DNA from: Fidelibacterota bacterium
Lineage (GTDB): Bacteria > Fidelibacterota > Fidelibacteria > Fidelibacterales > Fidelibacteraceae
Assembly: GCA_021734505.1 (NCBI GenBank)
Contig: JAIPIT010000003.1
Location: 1-56,471, forward strand
Direction: 5' to 3'
DNA length: 56,471 nucleotides
The notes under the pieces are model-generated. The model was not told the DNA's origin. It worked only from the letters and a program-made list of their open reading frames with translations, and did not search any database. Shown one piece after another: positions 3,975 through 55,340 of this stretch (position 1 is its first letter; each line of letters begins with the position of its first letter). A program made the position numbers and the translations under genes.

Positions 3975-4865
3975 ATGAAAGTGTTGATTTCTGACGGATT
4001 AAGCAAAGCCGGACAGGAAATACTTGAAAATGCAGGTATTGAATGTGTAAATCAGTTTTATACACCGGAAGAACTGGTTGAGAACATTAAAGATTACGAA
4101 TGTATTTTGGTCCGTTCAGCTACCAAAGTTCCCAAAGAAGCGATCGATGCGGGTGTAAAATTAATTTGTATCGCACGTGGTGGCGCCGGCATTGACAATA
4201 TCGATCATCAGTATGCAAAGACCAAGGGGATCCCTACCTTGAATACTCCGGCAGCGAACTCGGCTTCGGTGGCTGAACTTGCGATCGCGCACATGTTCGC
4301 ATTGGCTCGTTTCCTTCACAAATCCAATGTTACCATGCGCGAAGGAAAATGGAACAAGAAAGAATACAAAGGCATCGAACTTAACGGCAAGACCCTCGGT
4401 CTCGTCGGTTGCGGCAAGATCGGTCAATTGACTGCAGGTATCGCCAATGCGCTCGGCATGAAGGTGATCGGTTATGATCCTTATATCAAAGAAGCCGCCG
4501 GTATTGAGATGGTCTCCTTTGACGACCTGCTTAAGAGAGCTGATTTTGTTTCGCTTCACGTTCCGAAACAGCCTGAACCCGTGATCGGCGCCAAAGAGAT
4601 CGCCAAAATGAAAGACGGCGCTTATATCATTAACTGTGCCCGTGGCGGTGTGGTCGATGAAACTGCATTACTTGATGCTTTGAACAGCGGTAAAGTTGCA
4701 GGAGCCGGTCTTGATGTTTATGTTGAAGAACCCACCCGGAACATGGAGCTTGTCTCTCACCCCAATGTCTCTGTAACACCTCATGTCGGTGCTTCCACTA
4801 ACGAGGCCCAGGAACGAGTTGGTACTGAGATCGCTGAAAAGATAGTCGCTGCTTTAAAAGGCTAA
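3975..4865 (+). CDS. serA: D-3-phosphoglycerate dehydrogenase (2-hydroxyacid dehydrogenase)
   Basis: GLVGCGKIGQ NAD-binding motif, INCARGGVVDE, PHVGASTNEAQ; SD aggag upstream. Confidence 0.9.
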   Translation: MKVLISDGLSKAGQEILENAGIECVNQFYTPEELVENIKDYECILVRSATKVPKEAIDAGVKLICIARGGAGIDNIDHQYAKTKGIPTLNTPAANSASVAELAIAHMFALARFLHKSNVTMREGKWNKKEYKGIELNGKTLGLVGCGKIGQLTAGIANALGMKVIGYDPYIKEAAGIEMVSFDDLLKRADFVSLHVPKQPEPVIGAKEIAKMKDGAYIINCARGGVVDETALLDALNSGKVAGAGLDVYVEEPTRNMELVSHPNVSVTPHVGASTNEAQERVGTEIAEKIVAALKG

Positions 4866-4890
4866 GAATTAATTATGAATTATGAATTGA

Positions 4891-10356: not shown

Positions 10357-10564
10357 CAATTGACCTGCCTGCGTCCCTAAGGATTGGAACTACGGCATGG
10401 CAAGCAAAGAACAATTGAATGATCAATGTTAAATTGACAATGAATATGAGATGTGAATAGACCCCGACGGGGTCTGACAATTATATAACGAAATCACTCC
10501 CACAAAAAAACAACCCGGTCTGCCGCCCGTAGCTCCGATACTAAATATTTTGCGCATAAAAGAA

Positions 10565-10590
10565 AGAGACGCGATGCATCGCGTCTCTAC
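10565..10590. repeat. S1 palindrome AGAGACGCGATGCATCGCGTCTCT+AC
   Basis: 24-nt perfect palindrome. Confidence 0.8.
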
Positions 10591-10620
10591 ATATTTCGTC
10601 TCACATCTTACGTCTTACGT

Positions 10621-13600
10621 TTAACGTGACAATTTATCATTTATATATTCATTCACCGTTTCGGCTATCTTTTCCGCCATTAAAGTGCGAAACGCGGGAT
10701 CGGCAAGTTTGTTTTCATCTTCGGCATGGCTCATGAAAGCTTGTTCGACAAGGAATGAAGGACGCTGTGTCATGCGGCACATCATGTAGTTGAAAGAACC
10801 GACGGTTCCAAATTCAGCCAGATCAAGTTCCCGCAGTTTATCATATCCCAACTCAGCATAATCACGCCAAAATGGATTATGGTAATAAGTACTTGTTCCT
10901 GAAACACGCAGATATCCGCCATTGGCTGCATTTGCATGGATCGAAACAAAAATATCCGCATCCAGTGAATCGACCAGAAGCCAGCGTTCACGAAGATGCG
11001 GCGCCGTATCTTCCGGCCTGATCTCAACGACATCATAGCCCATTTCTCTTAGCATATCTCTGACCTTTTCAGCCGTATCGCGATTTACTTCTTTTTCTTT
11101 AAGTCCCGATAGTCCGACAGCTCCCCAATTCGTTTCACCACCGTGGCCGGCTTCAATTGCAATACGCAATTCATTGCGTTGTGGAGGATATTTTACGCTA
11201 AATGAGAGATATTTATCATTTTGTTTGAGATCATAACCCCAAATATTATTGTCCTTTAAATGTACATAAATATCATAGGTCTCAGCATCGCGCTGTTCCC
11301 ATGAAATGTGATCAATAACCTGCAAACCTTCACGATGAGTGATCCATGTTGAATTTGAATGTACGCCATAAAGTGTAATACGAATACGATCCTGCTCAGG
11401 TTGAGGCAAAACTGAATAAGGCACCGGTTCCGACCATGGAATGGTCAGCAGATCCTGAACAGTATCCGGTTTGACATTCAAATTATAAATATTGAATTCT
11501 GCCTTGGGAGTACCGGCAGGCAAAACTTTAACTTCGTTTTCAGGAATATATCCTATATTCGTTTTGCTCAATTGTACTCGGTAATCCTTTCCAAATTTTC
11601 CTGTCGTTTTAAAACGTACGCCTTTGGGATACTCATAAATATAGGGTCCGCCCAATCTGACGTCTCCGAGCGAGTAACTCACTTGAGTAAAATCAACATC
11701 ACTTTCAATGACCGGGAATCTATATTCATCTTGAATGATCAATGTCAGAGGCAAATTATATGAATAGTTTTCCCCTCTGATATCTCTTGCCGCAACCTGG
11801 AGGTAAACGATACTGTTGTTTGCAAACATTTTACAGGGAACCTCGCCGACGTAGCGTTTCCCATTATAATACAAAGGCAATGGAGATCCATTGGCATAAA
11901 GAAGAATTGTATCCATGTCATCAACCAGCAAAGAAGTAAAAGAAACACGCAATACATCATCCGGAGGTAACAGCACCGTATCCTGAGGACTGACGGAACT
12001 CATCACAACGGCATGTTTTGTCGTGGTATCGGGCATATTTCCAAAATAGATATCTTCATAAAAAATGCTTTCACCTCGGGTTGATACGCTTCCTCTGACC
12101 CTTGTTCTATGACCAAGGGGATTAAAAGCGATCTCTTTAAAGAAAATATGCGTATTGCTATAAGCTTCTATCGATTCACCGTTTATTCGTGTGTCGCCAA
12201 CACTTGCCCGGAAAAGAAAAGAAAAACTTGAATCGGAAGTTATGAACTCCGGCGCTTTTCGTAATTCAATATAATTTACCGGTCGTTCCACTTGATCTTT
12301 AGATTTTACATTATACCGGTATGGAACCACCCATTCTCGTGTTTGAAATTTCATTTTTTCCTGCATGCTTTGCAGTTTCATATACCGGGGCATTTCCTCT
12401 GTAATAATTGAAAGTTTATCGTATTGATCAATAAAATGAAATCTTGCATCATGTTCCGTGTAAATGATATCATAAGGTACATTTCTGCTTGAAAGATCCA
12501 GTTCGATAGCTTTGCTCCCTTTATGCGTTCGAGCCATAAAGGGAAGATCTGCACTTTCTGTAAATAGGGATTTTCCCATAAGAGCATCCTCTGCAGAATA
12601 GATAACCAGACCCTTTACGCCAAGTTTTTTTACATAATCCATCTCTTTTTTAATATCACTGTCGCGATAGGTATCTTCATCTCCCCGAAGTGAAGGAATA
12701 ATGTAATCCCCTAATTCAGATGCTTGATAATACATATCGAATAGCGAATTAAAAGATTTACTTTTTACATGAATTTGCGGCATTAGAAAGTCGATCAGCC
12801 CTTTTTCCAGCCAGGCGATCCCATCCTGAAAGTAGTAGGTGTCAGCAGCATTCATGGATTTAAAACTTTTAGATTCATGCACTAATGCCTGAGATTCAGC
12901 AGATATACTTAGATATGGTTTTAGCAATTTAATTTCAGTTACTATAGCTTCCAGGCATGATGTTAATATATTTTGCGCATAAGAATTCAGTTCAAGATGT
13001 GAAAATGCTTTAATAGCCTCATACTGGCGTATAAATACCTGAGTATCAACTATCTTATTATTGGGATAATACAGATGTGTCAAATGAATACCATCAAGCA
13101 TATAATTGCTTACCAGTTCATTGATCTGCATTTTTAAATATGATACCACTTGAGGATTTGATGGATCTAAATAATAGTTGGCATTTTCTGATATCGGTGA
13201 AAAGGAATCATCTGCCATGATCCATATTTTTCCATTTTGCATATACAGATGATCTATCGATTCCGGGCGATTAACCAGACTATAGGCACTCAATACATCA
13301 AATTGCGCATAAAGATGTAATCCGTGACGATGAGCTTCATCCAAAGCATATTGCAAAGGATCAAAACCCGGATCAATTTCATTGAAAAGAGTGCTCCAGG
13401 AACCATTCTTAGTGGGATAGAAACTCTCTCCCGCCTCACGGACCTGAAAAAATATGGCATTGTAGTTCTGTTCTTTAGCATTCAGCATGATCTTACTGAT
13501 AGCTTCCTGTTGAGCTTCCGTTCCTTGGGTGTATGCCCAATCCGCGCCAAGAACCACCAAACCCTGTAATGTCGAAACTGCAAATAAGGGAACAGCAAAA

Positions 13601-13671
13601 AAGACCAAGATCATAAGAAATAATCCAAATCTTCGTCCATAATGTTTACCGAAGCTAATATCCTTTGTCAT
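10621..13671 (-). CDS. GHL10 (DUF187)-type glycoside hydrolase fused to N-acetylmuramoyl-L-alanine amidase (Amidase_3)
   Basis: GHL10: YNAIFFQVREAGESFYP..PGFDPLQYALDEAHRHGLHLYAQF, YLDPSNPQV. Amidase_3: EAGHGGETNWGAVG, VSIHANA, FLVEQAFMSHAEDE. Start at residue 55 of the ORF-track protein (TTTGTCAT = M at 13671). Confidence 0.85.
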   Translation of the reverse strand: MTKDISFGKHYGRRFGLFLMILVFFAVPLFAVSTLQGLVVLGADWAYTQGTEAQQEAISKIMLNAKEQNYNAIFFQVREAGESFYPTKNGSWSTLFNEIDPGFDPLQYALDEAHRHGLHLYAQFDVLSAYSLVNRPESIDHLYMQNGKIWIMADDSFSPISENANYYLDPSNPQVVSYLKMQINELVSNYMLDGIHLTHLYYPNNKIVDTQVFIRQYEAIKAFSHLELNSYAQNILTSCLEAIVTEIKLLKPYLSISAESQALVHESKSFKSMNAADTYYFQDGIAWLEKGLIDFLMPQIHVKSKSFNSLFDMYYQASELGDYIIPSLRGDEDTYRDSDIKKEMDYVKKLGVKGLVIYSAEDALMGKSLFTESADLPFMARTHKGSKAIELDLSSRNVPYDIIYTEHDARFHFIDQYDKLSIITEEMPRYMKLQSMQEKMKFQTREWVVPYRYNVKSKDQVERPVNYIELRKAPEFITSDSSFSFLFRASVGDTRINGESIEAYSNTHIFFKEIAFNPLGHRTRVRGSVSTRGESIFYEDIYFGNMPDTTTKHAVVMSSVSPQDTVLLPPDDVLRVSFTSLLVDDMDTILLYANGSPLPLYYNGKRYVGEVPCKMFANNSIVYLQVAARDIRGENYSYNLPLTLIIQDEYRFPVIESDVDFTQVSYSLGDVRLGGPYIYEYPKGVRFKTTGKFGKDYRVQLSKTNIGYIPENEVKVLPAGTPKAEFNIYNLNVKPDTVQDLLTIPWSEPVPYSVLPQPEQDRIRITLYGVHSNSTWITHREGLQVIDHISWEQRDAETYDIYVHLKDNNIWGYDLKQNDKYLSFSVKYPPQRNELRIAIEAGHGGETNWGAVGLSGLKEKEVNRDTAEKVRDMLREMGYDVVEIRPEDTAPHLRERWLLVDSLDADIFVSIHANAANGGYLRVSGTSTYYHNPFWRDYAELGYDKLRELDLAEFGTVGSFNYMMCRMTQRPSFLVEQAFMSHAEDENKLADPAFRTLMAEKIAETVNEYINDKLSR

Positions 13672-13729
13672 TGTATCTCCAGGCTTATTATTTTTAATAT
13701 AAAAAATATAATTAATCAAACATAAAAAT

Positions 13730-13760
13730 AAAACAGGAGAATGCGATATTCTCCTGTTTT
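13730..13760. terminator. Hairpin aaaacaggagaat..attctcctgtttt downstream of tRNA-Pro
   Basis: 13-bp arms followed by T-rich tract on minus strand. Confidence 0.75.
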
Positions 13761-13765
13761 TACTG

Positions 13766-13839
13766 TCGGAGCGACAGGATTTGAACCTGCGACCCCTTGA
13801 ACCCCATTCAAGTGCGCTACCGGGCTGCGCCACGCTCCG
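13766..13839 (-). tRNA. tRNA-Pro (GGG)
   Basis: Minus strand CGGAGCG..CTTGA-ATGGGGT-TCAAG..GGTTCAAATCC..CGCTCCG A; CCA not encoded. Confidence 0.93.
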
Positions 13840-37923: not shown

Positions 37924-37999
37924 ATTCGTTTCCTTATGTCTTTAAATAGTGTTTACCGTTAAAGATAAATAAAAACTGTGGGGAATGAAAACAATAAAG

Positions 38000-38048
38000 A
38001 ACGATAAACGATAAACGATGAATTATGAATGATGGATGATGAATTTAA
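38000..38048. repeat. Heptad tract H7 (AACGATA/AATTATG/GATGATG units)
   Basis: Seven consecutive 7-nt units in one phase. Confidence 0.75.
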
Positions 38049-38053
38049 TTTCC

Positions 38054-38079
38054 GGAACAGGCATGCCCGTTCCCTACAC
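38054..38079. repeat. S2 short palindrome GGAACAGGCATGCCCGTTCCCTACAC
   Basis: Same shell as 55042..55067. Confidence 0.75.
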
Positions 38080-38130
38080 TTCTCACGTTTTATGTTTTAC
38101 TTTTACGTCTTACGTGTTACGTTTTATATC

Positions 38131-38391
38131 TTACTCATAATGCGTCCACATCCGAATCACTTTTACGATCTTCTTTTCCTCGTGGACCTGATAAACTAAA
38201 CGCTGCTGAATATTGATACGTCTGGAATCTGCACCTGTCAGATCTCCGAGCAATTTTTCAAATGGTGGAGGATCTTGGTATGGATTCTTCTTAATTACAT
38301 CCAACAAATTAATAATTTTGGGTTTTAAACCGGCAGAGGCAGCCTTTTTGGCATCTTTTTTGGCTTGTTTTGTGTAGACAAGAGTATACAT
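38131..38391 (-). CDS. Txe/YoeB family toxin
   Basis: YTKQAKKDAKKA..NPYQDPPPFEKLLGDLTGADSRRINIQQRLVYQVHEEKKIVKVIRMWTHYE. Confidence 0.9.
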   Translation of the reverse strand: MYTLVYTKQAKKDAKKAASAGLKPKIINLLDVIKKNPYQDPPPFEKLLGDLTGADSRRINIQQRLVYQVHEEKKIVKVIRMWTHYE

Positions 38392-38393
38392 GC

Positions 38394-38636
38394 TTACCAA
38401 TCGAGTTGGGTATCGCATTCATCAGGATTCTCTTTTAATCCCTCAATAATTGATTCTCTCATGCCGGGAATGGACGTGAGGTACATCGTCTCCTCGATAG
38501 CCCGCCAATCTTCTTCAGATAACAGAACGGCTGTGTTGTTCTTGCCGGTAATATATACCGGTTCATGAGCTTCTTTGACTTGGTCAACAAGTTTGTATAG
38601 CTCTTTTCGAGCATTTGTAACATTGATCGTTTTCAT
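38394..38636 (-). CDS. Phd/YefM family antitoxin
   Basis: NVTNARKELYKLVDQVKEAHEPVYITGKNNTAVLLSEEDWRAIEETMYL. Confidence 0.93.
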   Translation of the reverse strand: MKTINVTNARKELYKLVDQVKEAHEPVYITGKNNTAVLLSEEDWRAIEETMYLTSIPGMRESIIEGLKENPDECDTQLDW

Positions 38637-38644
38637 ATTATCTC

Positions 38645-38696: not shown

Positions 38697-38770
38697 ATGA
38701 TTTTATTAATATACTCTCGACAGGCAGAGAAATGAGTGACGTATGTTTAAGGTTTAGGGTTTAGTTCTTC

Positions 38771-39052: not shown

Positions 39053-39209
39053 GACCATCTTAAATCTTAAACCATTTTAACCCTTCACCCCAATTCAACC
39101 TTATTCATCTTTCTTCAACCTTCTTCAACTTAATTCTGATTTTGTCAATTGGAAATGTCTGATTTTTTTCTTAATATCATATCGAATTTCATACGTAAAA
39201 GGGGCTTTA

Positions 39210-42286: not shown

Positions 42287-43594
42287 ATGATAAAAGCAAA
42301 AGAAGTAAAAAAAGTCTTGTCAAAACACATGCTGACAGACGGTTTTGATGTCATTGTCGATCTCGACAAATCACACGGCTCATGGCTGGTTGACAAACGT
42401 AACGGTGATGAATATCTTGATTTTTTCTCAATGTTCGCTTCTCTGTCGATCGGATTCAATCATCCTTATTTAGTATCCAAAAAAGATGAATTTGGCCGTA
42501 TTGCCATAAACAAACCCACTAATTCCGATATATATTCAGAAGAAATGGCATCTTTCCTTGATACATTTTCACGCATTGGTATTCCAGACTATCTCCCCCA
42601 CGCATTTTTTGTTTCGGGTGGTGGACTGGCAGTCGAGAATGCCTTAAAAGCTGCGTTTGACTGGAAAGTCCGCAAGAATTTTGAAAAAGGCGAAACGGAT
42701 GTAGTCGGATTAAAAGTACTCCATTTCAAACAAGCATTTCACGGCAGAACAGGCTATACTTTATCTTTGACAAACACAGCTGATCCAAGAAAAACACAGT
42801 ACTTCCCTCTTTTTGATTGGCCACGAGCTACAAATCCAAAATTGATCTTCCCCCTTGAAGAGAACAAAGAGACCAATGAAGCATTGGAAGCAAAAGCCAT
42901 AGCCGAGATCAAAGAGATGGTCGCTAAAGATGCCAAGAATATTGCCTGTATCATTATTGAGCCTATCCAAGGTGAAGGCGGAGATAACCATTTCAGTAAA
43001 TCTTTCTTTAAGGCATTGCGAGATATATGTGATGATAATGAAATGTTATTGATCTTTGATGAAGTTCAAAGTGGCGTCGGACTAACGGGTAAATTCTGGG
43101 CACACCAGAATTATGATGTTAAACCCGATATCATTTCTTTCGGTAAAAAAGCACAGGTCTGCGGTATTTTGGCCGGTCCTCGTATGGATGAAGTCAAAAA
43201 CAACGTCTTCGTTGAATCAAGTCGCATCAATTCCACATGGGGTGGTAACCTCGTTGATATGATGCGTTTTAAATATACGCTTGAAGTCATTGAAAAAGAA
43301 AACCTGATAGAAAATGCGGTTAAAATGGGTAAAGTCCTGCTTGCCGAACTTAAAAAGATCAAAGAGGAATATCCCAAATTGATCTCCAATGTCCGCGGTG
43401 TAGGCCTGATGTGCGCATTTGATCTGCCTGATGGTGAAAAACGCAATGAGTTCCTAAATAAAATGTGGGATAATAAAGTCATGATCCTCCTTTGCGGAGA
43501 CAGATCCATGCGCTTCCGTCCGCATTTGAACGTTACTGAAGACGAACTGATGTACGGTTGCAACGTTATTCGAAAGGTACTTGCAGAAATGTAG
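42287..43594 (+). CDS. lat: L-lysine 6-transaminase (LAT-type class III aminotransferase)
   Basis: FFVSGGGLAVENALKAAFDWK, IIEPIQGEGGDNHF, IFDEVQSGVGLTGKFWAHQ, SFGKKAQVCG. Confidence 0.9.
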   Translation: MIKAKEVKKVLSKHMLTDGFDVIVDLDKSHGSWLVDKRNGDEYLDFFSMFASLSIGFNHPYLVSKKDEFGRIAINKPTNSDIYSEEMASFLDTFSRIGIPDYLPHAFFVSGGGLAVENALKAAFDWKVRKNFEKGETDVVGLKVLHFKQAFHGRTGYTLSLTNTADPRKTQYFPLFDWPRATNPKLIFPLEENKETNEALEAKAIAEIKEMVAKDAKNIACIIIEPIQGEGGDNHFSKSFFKALRDICDDNEMLLIFDEVQSGVGLTGKFWAHQNYDVKPDIISFGKKAQVCGILAGPRMDEVKNNVFVESSRINSTWGGNLVDMMRFKYTLEVIEKENLIENAVKMGKVLLAELKKIKEEYPKLISNVRGVGLMCAFDLPDGEKRNEFLNKMWDNKVMILLCGDRSMRFRPHLNVTEDELMYGCNVIRKVLAEM

Positions 43595-43596
43595 GA

Positions 43597-43630
43597 ACTG
43601 GTGACTGGTGACTGGTGACTGGAAACTGGT
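43597..43630. repeat. Heptad tract H9 (TGGTGAC)n directly after lat stop
   Basis: actggtgactggtgactggtgactggaaactggt. Confidence 0.85.
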
Positions 43631-43645
43631 AAAAATTATAAAGTA

Positions 43646-43683
43646 AAGGGCTCTCTCGAAAAATCGGGTTGAGCCTTTTTTTT
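43646..43683 (+). terminator. Terminator of lat
   Basis: gggctctctcgaaaaatcgggttgagcctttttttt. Confidence 0.65.
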
Positions 43684-43770
43684 CAATTGACTCAATGAGA
43701 TTATTTTCGATTGACTCAATGGGATTATTTTCAATTGACTCAATGAGATTATTTTCAATTGACTCAATGC
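43684..43770. repeat. 24-bp tandem repeat, 3.6 copies, each with ATTGACTCAAT palindrome
   Basis: Units start at 43684, 43708, 43732, 43756. Confidence 0.93.
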
Positions 43771-47526: not shown

Positions 47527-47792
47527 TCTTTTTTAGGCGTAAAGGTTTGGGGTGTGGAGGTTTAAATGAGTTCTCAACCTTTTAAACGTTTCAACAATAC
47601 CATCTCATGAGTAGATCTTTCCAGTCTTCGCTCTTCGAGCTTCGGCCGGCAGGCGACTTCGGCTCGCATACTCACCTACGCTCAAGATGACAGTTTATTT
47701 TGTATTTCAACTTCTTCAACGCTTCAACCTCTTCTCTTTTATCTTTAAATTATCATCTTTAATCTTTACATTACGCAGGAAAAGGAGCCCGC

Positions 47793-48572
47793 ATGCGTAA
47801 TCAAATCGTTAATATTCTTACAGAAGCCGGAAAGATCATTTCAAGTCGTATTCATACCCTAAAGATCATTGACCATAAATCCACGGAGGTCGATCTGGTC
47901 ACTGAAGTGGACCGTGAAGTCGAGCTATTTCTAATGGAAAAACTAAGTGCGCTTCTCCCCAATAGCGAATTTTTATCTGAAGAAACAGCAAGTGAAATTA
48001 AGGAAGCGGACAAGCTTTGGGTTATGGATCCCATTGACGGGACGCTGAATTTTGTCCATGGTTTCCCTATGGTCTGTATCTCTCTCGCCCTTCATGAGGA
48101 CGGTGTGCCAACTCATGCCTATGTTTATAATCCAATGATCAATTATCTGTTTGAAGCTCAGCGAGGAAAGGGTGCGAAACTGAATGGACTTGATATACAT
48201 GTCTCCACTCACACAAAATTGATAGAATGCCTCTTGTCTACAGGTTTTCCTTATGATTACCCGACAAATAAAGAAAACAATTTAAATTATTTCGACCATT
48301 TCAATCGTCGCGTACAAGGGGTTCGCCGACCGGGATCAGCCGCCCTGGATATGGCATTTACTGCCGCAGGGACTTTTGACGGATTTTGGGAATGGCATCT
48401 CAAACCCTGGGATGTGGCTGCCGGTATCCTGTTGATCAAAGAAGCAGGCGGTATCGTAACAAATTTTGATGGGCATCCCTATACATTTCAAGATGACCAT
48501 ATTGTTGCCGGAAATCCGGCTATACATGCCTTAATGTTAAAAGAAATTGAAAAAATAAAAATTACTTTGTAG
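47793..48572 (+). CDS. suhB: Inositol monophosphatase family protein
   Basis: WVMDPIDGTLNFVHGFPMVCISLAL, WDVAAGILLIKEAGG. Confidence 0.93.
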   Translation: MRNQIVNILTEAGKIISSRIHTLKIIDHKSTEVDLVTEVDREVELFLMEKLSALLPNSEFLSEETASEIKEADKLWVMDPIDGTLNFVHGFPMVCISLALHEDGVPTHAYVYNPMINYLFEAQRGKGAKLNGLDIHVSTHTKLIECLLSTGFPYDYPTNKENNLNYFDHFNRRVQGVRRPGSAALDMAFTAAGTFDGFWEWHLKPWDVAAGILLIKEAGGIVTNFDGHPYTFQDDHIVAGNPAIHALMLKEIEKIKITL

Positions 48573-51216: not shown

Positions 51217-51258
51217 AAGTTTTAAATCGTTTAGGGTTTAGGGTTTAGGGTTTAAAAA
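51217..51258. repeat. Heptad tract H10 (TTAGGGT)n abutting rimO start
   Basis: aagtttt aaatcgt ttagggt ttagggt ttagggt ttaaaaa. Confidence 0.85.
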
Positions 51259-51360: not shown

Positions 51361-51486
51361 TAATTGATCATATTCATCTTCAACTTTTCAACAACACCAT
51401 CTCATGAATAGATCCTTCACTTCGTTCAGGATGACAGTCTAAGTAACATTTCAACCTCTTTCAACACTTCAACGCTTCAACCTCTT

Positions 51487-52461
51487 TCAACCTTCTTCAA
51501 ATCCTTCAAACATGGCATGAACGTAACGAACGGGATCAAACGCCTGGAGATCTTCCAATTTTTCCCCCAAGCCGATATATTTTACGGGAATATTCATTTT
51601 TTGTCTGATCCCGATCATGGACCCGCCTTTGGCTGTTCCGTCCAATTTTGTAACGATCAATCCGGTGATCGGTGTTACTTTTGTAAATTCCTGCGCCTGA
51701 ACGACCGAATTCTGTCCGATCGAACCATCAAGAACCAGCAGCGTTTCATGCGGAGCCTCAGGAATGATCTTCTGGATAACGCGTTTGATCTTATCAAGTT
51801 CTTCCATCAAATGTGCTTTATTATGCAAGCGACCGGCCGTGTCAATGAGAATAACATCACTGTCACGCGATAGTCCCGCCTGAATTCCATCGTAAACGAT
51901 GCCTGAAGGCGCTTTCGCTTCGAGGTTCTTAATGATATCCACTCCAGCGCGTTCGGCCCATATATCCAATTGCTCAATAGCGGCTGCCCGGTAAGTATCA
52001 CCGGCGATGATCAGGACTTTCTTTCCCTCACCGCGATAAAATGAGGCCAATTTACCGATCGTGGTTGTCTTCCCTGCTCCATTCACGCCAACGACCAAAA
52101 TCACACAGGGATGATAGGAATCGACAGGGATGCTCAGATCGTCATCTTTGAACAGGTCTTCAAAAAGTTCGGCAATGATATCGCGGACATCTTCATAAGC
52201 CAACAATTCTTTTTTCCGGGATGCCGATACGATCTTTTCAAGGATCAATTCGCAGACATCCGCACCAAGGTCCGATTCATATAAAAAGGCCTCGATGTTT
52301 TCCATAAAATCATCCGAAATTTTCATTCCGCGCCCAAAAAGCGATAACAATCCCTCTTTGAAGCGATTCCTGGATTTACTCAGACCTTTTTCGTAACGGT
52401 CGTCTTTTTGGAGTTCCTGAACTGTCTCTTTTTCTTTATTTTTTCTTTTGAATAGACCCAT
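51487..52461 (-). CDS. ftsY: Signal recognition particle receptor FtsY
   Basis: GVNGAGKTTTIGKLA, AGDTYRAAAIEQL, DTAGRLHNKAHLMEEL, TKLDGTAKGG. Confidence 0.97.
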   Translation of the reverse strand: MGLFKRKNKEKETVQELQKDDRYEKGLSKSRNRFKEGLLSLFGRGMKISDDFMENIEAFLYESDLGADVCELILEKIVSASRKKELLAYEDVRDIIAELFEDLFKDDDLSIPVDSYHPCVILVVGVNGAGKTTTIGKLASFYRGEGKKVLIIAGDTYRAAAIEQLDIWAERAGVDIIKNLEAKAPSGIVYDGIQAGLSRDSDVILIDTAGRLHNKAHLMEELDKIKRVIQKIIPEAPHETLLVLDGSIGQNSVVQAQEFTKVTPITGLIVTKLDGTAKGGSMIGIRQKMNIPVKYIGLGEKLEDLQAFDPVRYVHAMFEGFEEG

Positions 52462-52484
52462 AATTCTCATTTTATTTCAGTTAC

Positions 52485-52547
52485 GGAACAGGCATCAGTC
52501 TACTCCGCCAGCCGGCGGATTCGCCCGACAAGCGCCTGTTCCCTACA
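52485..52547. repeat. S2 long element, copy 2 (GGAACAGGCAT-insert-GCCTGTTCCCTACAC)
   Basis: Near-identical to 13963..14025. Confidence 0.8.
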
Positions 52548-52565
52548 CATCGTTTCAATTTTTCG

Positions 52566-53862: not shown

Positions 53863-54588
53863 TTATTGACCGATCTCCATTAAACGCTTTTCTACCAGAT
53901 CAGAATCAAGAATTATATTATTGACCGTAAAAGCTTCCGGACACTCATTAGTCGAGAATTGGGCTTTGATACACCCCCGATCCATGATCCATACTTTGTC
54001 GTTAAAACAGTATTCATCGGGACTTTGAGAAGTAATGCAAATGCTTTTCCCGCTTTTTGCCATTTCCCTCATGCAGGAATAAAATATTTTGATCGCAGGT
54101 GGATCAAGATGCGACGTGGGCTCATCCATCAGGTAGATGTCCGCCTCGGTCAAACAGGTCGCCGCGATCATGACCAATTGTGTTTCGCCGAAGGACAAGG
54201 TCGATATATCCCGGTCCAGCAAATGCTCGATCTGAAGAAGTTCTGCGATCTTATTGATCTCAAACATGGCTTCATCCTTATTCTTACCCGCATTTTTCAG
54301 GGGAAAGGACAATTCATCCCGCACATATTGCATAATGATCTGGTGAAAGGGATTTTGCAGGAGCATTGCTACGCGCTTACCATCTGTTTCAATTTCGCCT
54401 GCCTCAAGGTCCGAGAATCCGGCAATGGCTTTAAGCAAAGAGGTTTTACCGCAGCCCGAATTACCGAGAAGCAGAATGCTTTCTCCGCTTTTGATCTCAA
54501 GATCAACTCCCAGAGGCGTGGTGAAATATGAAAGATGTGCATTACTAATAAACATGGTAGAATATATGAGATTTAATGGAGGTTTCAT
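53863..54588 (-). CDS. ABC transporter ATP-binding protein (EcfA/CbiO-like)
   Basis: GNSGCGKTSLLKAIAG, LSFGETQLVMIAATCL, IYLMDEPTSHLD; start may be internal (54555). Confidence 0.88.
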   Translation of the reverse strand: MKPPLNLIYSTMFISNAHLSYFTTPLGVDLEIKSGESILLLGNSGCGKTSLLKAIAGFSDLEAGEIETDGKRVAMLLQNPFHQIIMQYVRDELSFPLKNAGKNKDEAMFEINKIAELLQIEHLLDRDISTLSFGETQLVMIAATCLTEADIYLMDEPTSHLDPPAIKIFYSCMREMAKSGKSICITSQSPDEYCFNDKVWIMDRGCIKAQFSTNECPEAFTVNNIILDSDLVEKRLMEIGQ

Positions 54589-54598
54589 AGAATAAGAA

Positions 54599-54623
54599 GT
54601 AGAGACAAGGCATTGCCTTGTCT
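54599..54623. repeat. S1 palindrome GTAGAGACAAGGCATTGCCTTGTCT
   Basis: Inverted arms with S1 shell. Confidence 0.75.
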
Positions 54624-54658
54624 GGATGATGGATTATGAATTATGAGTTATGGATGAT
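54624..54658. repeat. Heptad tract H13 (GGATGAT GGATTAT GAATTAT GAGTTAT GGATGAT)
   Basis: Five exact 7-nt units in phase, joined to the S1 palindrome. Confidence 0.8.
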
Positions 54659-55041: not shown

Positions 55042-55067
55042 GGAACAGGCATGCCTGTTCCCTACAC
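55042..55067. repeat. S2 short palindrome GGAACAGGCATGCCTGTTCCCTACAC
   Basis: Perfect 20-nt palindrome plus CTACAC tail. Confidence 0.8.
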
Positions 55068-55237
55068 CTATCACGACGTTTCACCTCTCACATCTTACGT
55101 CTCAAGTCTTACCAGCCTGCGCCGAGGCTTCGGTCGGCAGGCGTCTTACGATTCAACACTTAAACGATTCAACATTTCAACATCTTTTGCCTTTTGCCTC
55201 ACCTTCGCTAAAGCTATGGTGAGCATGCTTTTGCCTC

Positions 55238-55271: not shown

Positions 55272-55340
55272 TCGCTTTAAAGAGATCATTGGTTGCCACT
55301 TTAATCTTTTTCCTTTTATCTTTTATCTTTAAGTTATCAC

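Follow-up and report, generated by a model that had tools for sequence, protein, structure and literature searches.

Introduction

According to Mrazek et al. (2007), heptanucleotides form the most abundant class of long repeats in the majority of bacterial genomes; polymerase slippage was proposed as their origin, with 7 nt perhaps being the length that contacts DNA polymerase (both as related in PMC4679880 and PMC4692102). In Xanthomonas and Nostoc, GGGAATC/GGGGATT heptads are described as following stop codons on the coding strand at a distance of up to 50 bp, some of them overlapping the stop, and GGGAATC-type heptads as lying just before starts on the non-coding strand (Rehm, 2015; PMC4692102). 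The TAACTGA repeats of marine Beggiatoaceae, which are also found in cyanobacteria and Bacteroidetes, place stop codons in all three frames when copies run forward, and 13 sets are said to share bases with the stop codon of the gene before them (MacGregor, 2015; PMC4679880). PMC4692102 cites a report of three families of tandem heptanucleotides from a single genome, that of Calothrix PCC 7601. At the level of description, the genome studied here likewise holds several heptanucleotide families. We take the Calothrix repeats to be those that go by the name STRR.

Here we extend the heptanucleotide-repeat phenomenon to Neomarinimicrobiota, in which arrays gather around stop codons in a constant strand orientation, whatever their unit sequence, or alphabet. 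As in the repeats of the Mrazek class, the heptanucleotide is the commonest unit, mostly extragenic and of many sequences; the host arrays differ in being strongly degenerate, and the phylum is not named where that class is described in PMC4679880 and PMC4692102. The geometry is that of the heptads in PMC4692102, but those form one G-quadruplex-forming family, placed mostly at conserved positions between two species, whereas here there are many alphabets with few G runs (most units of the listed arrays lack the GGG of a G-quadruplex-capable run), and few orthologues keep the array. With the TAACTGA repeats, as PMC4679880 describes them, the arrays share a 7-nt unit holding TAA or TGA and some overlap with stops; that family, however, is a single sequence found mostly a few nucleotides upstream of starts, whereas the nearest alphabet here, TAACTGG/TGACTGG, is one of many, lies mostly behind stops and falls outside the family. 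Neither the preference for 7 nt nor the geometry at gene ends is without precedent, and what is added is the geometry over many alphabets and in another phylum. The strand and gene-end rule offers a testable handle on the 7-base preference, through transcription, R-loops and terminators, beyond the footprint of the polymerase.

Seven-nucleotide arrays in the window and the host genome

The window, by which we mean the whole stretch of 56,471 nucleotides that was analysed, is contig C86 of a draft genome of 1.98 Mb (116 contigs, 78% complete), and the nearest named relatives of its PNPase gene belong to Candidatus Neomarinimicrobiota (90% identity). Genome-scale counts were made on 1.036 Mb of this host genome, window included. 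Genes were called as the longest non-overlapping open reading frames (ORFs), with no annotation pipeline, and ORFs of at least 450 nt were taken as real genes; the earliest possible start codons were used, and distances on the start side are rough.

The original prediction, that many heptad sequences share a unit length of 7 nt, is confirmed. In the noncoding DNA of the 1.036-Mb sample, Tandem Repeats Finder (TRF) reports 128 repeats of period 7, with harmonics at periods 14 (35) and 21 (14) and a weaker signal at period 8 (35), versus 5.8, 1.4, 0, and 5.6, respectively, in dinucleotide shuffles. Periods 3 to 6 are near nil in the noncoding DNA, and the unit lengths form a peak, not a broad distribution. 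In coding DNA the multiples of three stand out (period 6, 27; period 9, 70; period 12, 37), and period 7 (36) gives no sharp peak over the periods next to it (27 repeats for 6, 21 for 8). The noncoding DNA of the window alone contains 11 period-7 runs, compared with an expectation of 0.13 and a maximum of 2 in 100 dinucleotide shuffles, and periods 4–6, 9, and 11–13 have 0–1 runs each. Its autocorrelation is 0.314 at lag 7 versus about 0.275 at adjacent lags, coding DNA being flat there, and the noncoding DNA of the larger sample peaks at lags 7, 14, and 21. Among 58 strict period-7 runs, 38 are noncoding, 15 cross an ORF end and 5 are wholly within ORFs, a near-exclusively intergenic location. 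In both respects, the dominance of 7 among above-chance arrays (relative to dinucleotide shuffles) and the exclusion of units that are not multiples of three from coding DNA (the 58 strict runs), the arrays conform to the class of heptanucleotide long simple sequence repeats.

Eight of the tracts predicted in the window were recovered by TRF at or near their expected places. The core array at 37989–38044 drifts from AACGATA through AATTATG to GATGAAT in a single register (TRF 37999–38044, 6.6 copies, 82% match), and a TTACGTY array at 38085–38126, reading ACGTAAR on its own, minus strand (TRF 6.1 copies), lies just 3′ of a small minus-strand ORF at about 38130–38400. Two plus-strand arrays sit 2 nt past a stop codon: AATTATG at 4868–4888 (TRF 4871–4888, 2.6 copies, perfect) behind the gene at 3975–4865 (+), followed by a terminator-like hairpin, and ACTGGTG at 43597–43630 (TRF 4.9 copies) behind the aminotransferase gene at 42287–43594, whose stop is conserved, again with a terminator hairpin beyond. 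The minus-strand ACGTAAG array at 10597–10620 (TRF 3.4 copies) abuts the stop codon of the gene at 10621–13833 (−; GHL10 plus amidase). GTTTAGG is repeated 3.7 times, perfectly, at 51229–51254 (TRF and run scan), a TGGATTA/TGAATTA array at 54623–54652 (TRF 54629–54652, 3.4 copies) lies upstream of the gene at 53863–54588 (−), and a CTTTTAT array occupies 55299–55330 (TRF 4.6 copies). Two further predicted tracts are weak: at 75–110 TRF reports period 8 (83–105), and at 2387–2430 a perfect but short GAATATC repeat (2388–2404, 2.4 copies; TRF and run scan) precedes a GAACAAT stretch with no strict period 7. Absent from the prediction were a degenerate TTACGTY array of about 8.6 units at 238–323 (TRF 250–319/260–319, period-7 run score 29), just upstream of an ABC-F-like ORF (338–2275, +); a period-7 repeat at 322–352 (TRF); a GTTTAGG array of 2.9 copies at 38745–38764 (TRF and run scan); and a CTTTAAT/TCTTTTA array at 47729–47768 (TRF 47735–47768 and run scan), upstream of 47793–48572 (+).

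Other elements were also seen in the window. Short palindromes with GTAG/CTAC-type ends (GAGACGCGATGCATCGCGTCTCTAC, GGAACAGGCATGCCTGTTCCCTAC) occur at 10550–10600, 38060–38080, 52480–52550, and 55060–55090; they are intergenic, REP-like and often beside TTACGTY arrays. The host genome has four matches to the Y1 transposase (PF01797). Two small minus-strand genes at 38130–38640 form a putative lookalike, judged by eye, of a YoeB/YefM-type toxin-antitoxin pair, and the array at 38085 follows the first.

Unit sequences and their drift

The tract sequences had been described as unrelated, and this part of the prediction does not hold. The 91 arrays fall into 67 exact classes, compared with 84 for random heptads, and single linkage at one mismatch gathers them into 9 groups, compared with 20. 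The alphabets are thus diverse yet linked in a connected network: they recur, resemble one another beyond random heptads, and merge in one register where they are neighbours. Along the arrays, identity between units falls from 0.71 for adjacent units to 0.48 for units five apart, which is the expected trace of repeated local copying combined with point mutation.

The arrays are degenerate members of the known bacterial class of heptanucleotide simple-sequence arrays, probably with a slipped-strand origin followed by mutation and selective survival. Slipped-strand duplication with a preferred step near 7 nt, and 8 nt as second choice, would create arrays, and point mutation would then degrade them. 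Against this reading, slippage alone does not account for 7 over 5 or 6, and a clear 14-nt higher-order duplication is present in just one of 42 long arrays. Loss of mismatch repair was rejected as a cause, given three MutS-type genes and the near absence of periods 3–6. Compound units of 3 + 4 nt were also rejected, similarity at lag 3 within units not exceeding that of within-unit permutations, as were inverted pairs of arrays flanking a mobile element: of 493 spacers, only 16 have at least two arrays, and inverted sharing is not above direct.

The constant period had been read as the sign of a length-measuring mechanism. That the step stays at 7 nt while the sequence is largely free argues for length-dependent copying and against the spread of a single sequence, a conclusion that is partly supported. 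The idea of an exact 7-nt ruler is weakened, because 8-nt arrays also exceed chance, because alphabets are partly shared (e.g., GTAACTGGTAACTGG), and because the arrays are far from randomly placed and oriented with respect to genes, something not predicted by a mechanism that depends on length alone.

Position and strand relative to genes

Stop codons are the preferred site. Of the 83 arrays located near real genes, 22 extend through a stop codon and another 21 start between 2 nt before and 9 nt after one (43 of 83), and only 3 start at +10 to +30 nt; in an earlier sample of 0.78 Mb, 25 arrays lie within 5 nt of a stop versus 3.9 by random placement in the same spacers. On the gene's strand, stop-proximal arrays with more G than C outnumber the reverse by 38:2 (20:1 through the stop, 18:1 just after it), compared with 137:130 in array-free post-stop DNA, in a test that is exploratory because it used the data that suggested the rule. 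In relatives the ratio is 8:2. Stop codons are in excess on the sense strand in all 20 informative arrays that run through a stop (20:0) and by 14:4 in arrays after it. For the penetrating arrays such a bias follows from the definition of an ORF, which closes at its first in-frame stop; for arrays beginning after the stop, the G bias exceeds the stop-codon bias. The finding of a stop codon in the array register (20 of 41 stop-adjacent arrays) was discarded as evidence of function, as it is partly tautological for arrays entering the gene. Within 150 nt upstream of starts the sign is reversed (8:25), and this is the weaker half of the rule because upstream DNA without arrays also has an excess of C (95:148). 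The arrays therefore have the G-rich strand as coding strand behind stops and as non-coding strand before starts, the geometry described by Rehm (2015), with the start side partly background. Terminator-like hairpins stand behind 15 of 42 stop-adjacent arrays versus 48 of 290 controls.

If slippage is combined with selection, arrays would persist where they are harmless, that is, outside reading frames and between stop codon and terminator. Arrays crossing a gene end would survive chiefly if stop codons are present on their sense strand; because 7 equals 1 modulo 3, repeating a unit that contains TAA or TGA places stops in every frame. Selection would remove arrays from frames, from terminators and, at gene ends, from read-through orientations. 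This avoidance of harm accounts for the excess of stop codons in penetrating arrays, but it leaves unexplained the 18:1 excess of G in arrays that begin 0–9 nt past the stop.

There is a small chance that expansion is instead coupled to gene ends. The ribosome-free, G-rich RNA past the stop would form an R-loop at which replication or repair slips, and arrays would be born at stop codons with their G-rich strand as sense. The concentration of arrays at and through stops and the sense-strand excess of G, seen also in relatives, are what such coupling would give, and in Kapabacterium G149 most stop-abutting AATTATG arrays share this orientation (L189, L191, L199, L202, L204; the exception is L200, at 16 nt). 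Yet arrays before starts tend the opposite way, albeit in C-biased surroundings, many arrays are remote from stop codons and unbiased, and tolerance in the space before the terminator, where the hairpins are found, could yield the same pile-up. A broader version, which we also hold to be unlikely, is that a transcription-linked process (slippage linked to ribosome-free RNA and R-loops, or 3′-end extension), and not birth anywhere followed by filtering, writes the arrays outward from gene boundaries, so that the G/purine strand leaves the gene in the 5′ to 3′ direction, whatever the alphabet and in two phyla or more.

A slighter chance attaches to the arrays being functional sites with a 7-nt pitch, read on RNA or DNA, for example by a cold-shock (OB-fold) protein at each heptamer or by a translational regulator, as MacGregor suggested for TAACTGA. 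Such a role would fit the non-random strand and position of the arrays, and Bacillus CspB, as cited in PMC4679880, binds one protein per heptamer. The variety of sequences is too great for a single reader, though, orthologous genes mostly have no array, and in an informal look no gene category stood out in the window.

Arrays in related genomes

Heptads occur beyond the host. In other Neomarinimicrobiota they have different alphabets (GTAGTAG, TTCTGGC, GTTGATG, GGTATAA), and in two relatives period 8 is as common as period 7 (10 versus 6 in G001, 17 versus 15 in G019). A Nostoc PCC 7120 plasmid stretch has arrays too few for judging position.

The orthologous loci point to turnover. DNA comparison of orthologous spacers yielded three comparable loci, at none of which the relative has an array. 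The ACTGGTG array at 43597 is missing at eight orthologous loci (L076–L082 and L084), where the aminotransferase gene stops at the identical residue; in the closest relative (G008, aminotransferase 91% identical at the protein level) this spacer holds an array of another type, TACACCC, at a more downstream position. C-termini could be compared in an informative alignment for six stop-adjacent genes. For the array at 10597, ACGTAAG is kept in L001 (82%), and L003 (63%) has the same stop without the array; substitutions account for most of the differences in the L001 copy, and the number of units shows no clear change by eye, so this array appears not to be slippage-active. At L027 and L053, where arrays run through the stop, the C-termini diverge from those of relatives where the array begins. 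Since orthologous loci in relatives mostly have no array, we conclude that the arrays were gained within lineages; they are lineage-specific gains, some of which persist.

It is improbable that the alphabets spread as ready-made sequences, by gene conversion or horizontal transfer, with the length of 7 inherited and not measured. In its favor, GTAACTGGTAACTGG has 32 overlapping matches in the host genome and is present in 7 of the 10 genus genomes searched (the host and six congeners) but in only 5 of 139 genomes elsewhere in the phylum, and exact AATTATG arrays are abundant in Kapabacterium G149 (88 matches; reversed control, 0). The number of exact classes among the host arrays speaks against it, as do the differences in alphabet and place between the arrays of an orthologous spacer and the drift of alphabet inside single arrays. 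A BLAST search of plasmids with simple heptad queries found nothing, possibly owing to low-complexity filtering. Chance or misassembly, for which one could cite the fragmented and incomplete draft, deserves next to no credence, as counts exceed those of shuffles at least twenty-fold, the arrays, all under 130 nt and degenerate, are hard to mis-assemble, and separately assembled relatives show the same pattern. We retain slippage near 7 nt with selective survival as the probable origin.

Repeats of other kinds were also noted. Two spacers of the window, at 39093–39131 and 51449–51509, carry degenerate arrays whose period of about 10 nt (TTCAACCTTY) departs from the 7-nt rule. At six loci of Kapabacterium G149 (L175, L178, L182, L185, L194, L200), AATTATG arrays are joined to a repeated element, GTTTGCAAACNGTTTGCAAA, forming a composite of two repeat kinds. 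In the window, the spacer with the ACTGGTG heptads also holds 3.8 copies of a 24-bp unit (TTTTCAATTGACTCAATGAGATTA) at 43680–43769, and units resembling it (ATTGACTCAATG) lie behind thyA in a relative (L170).
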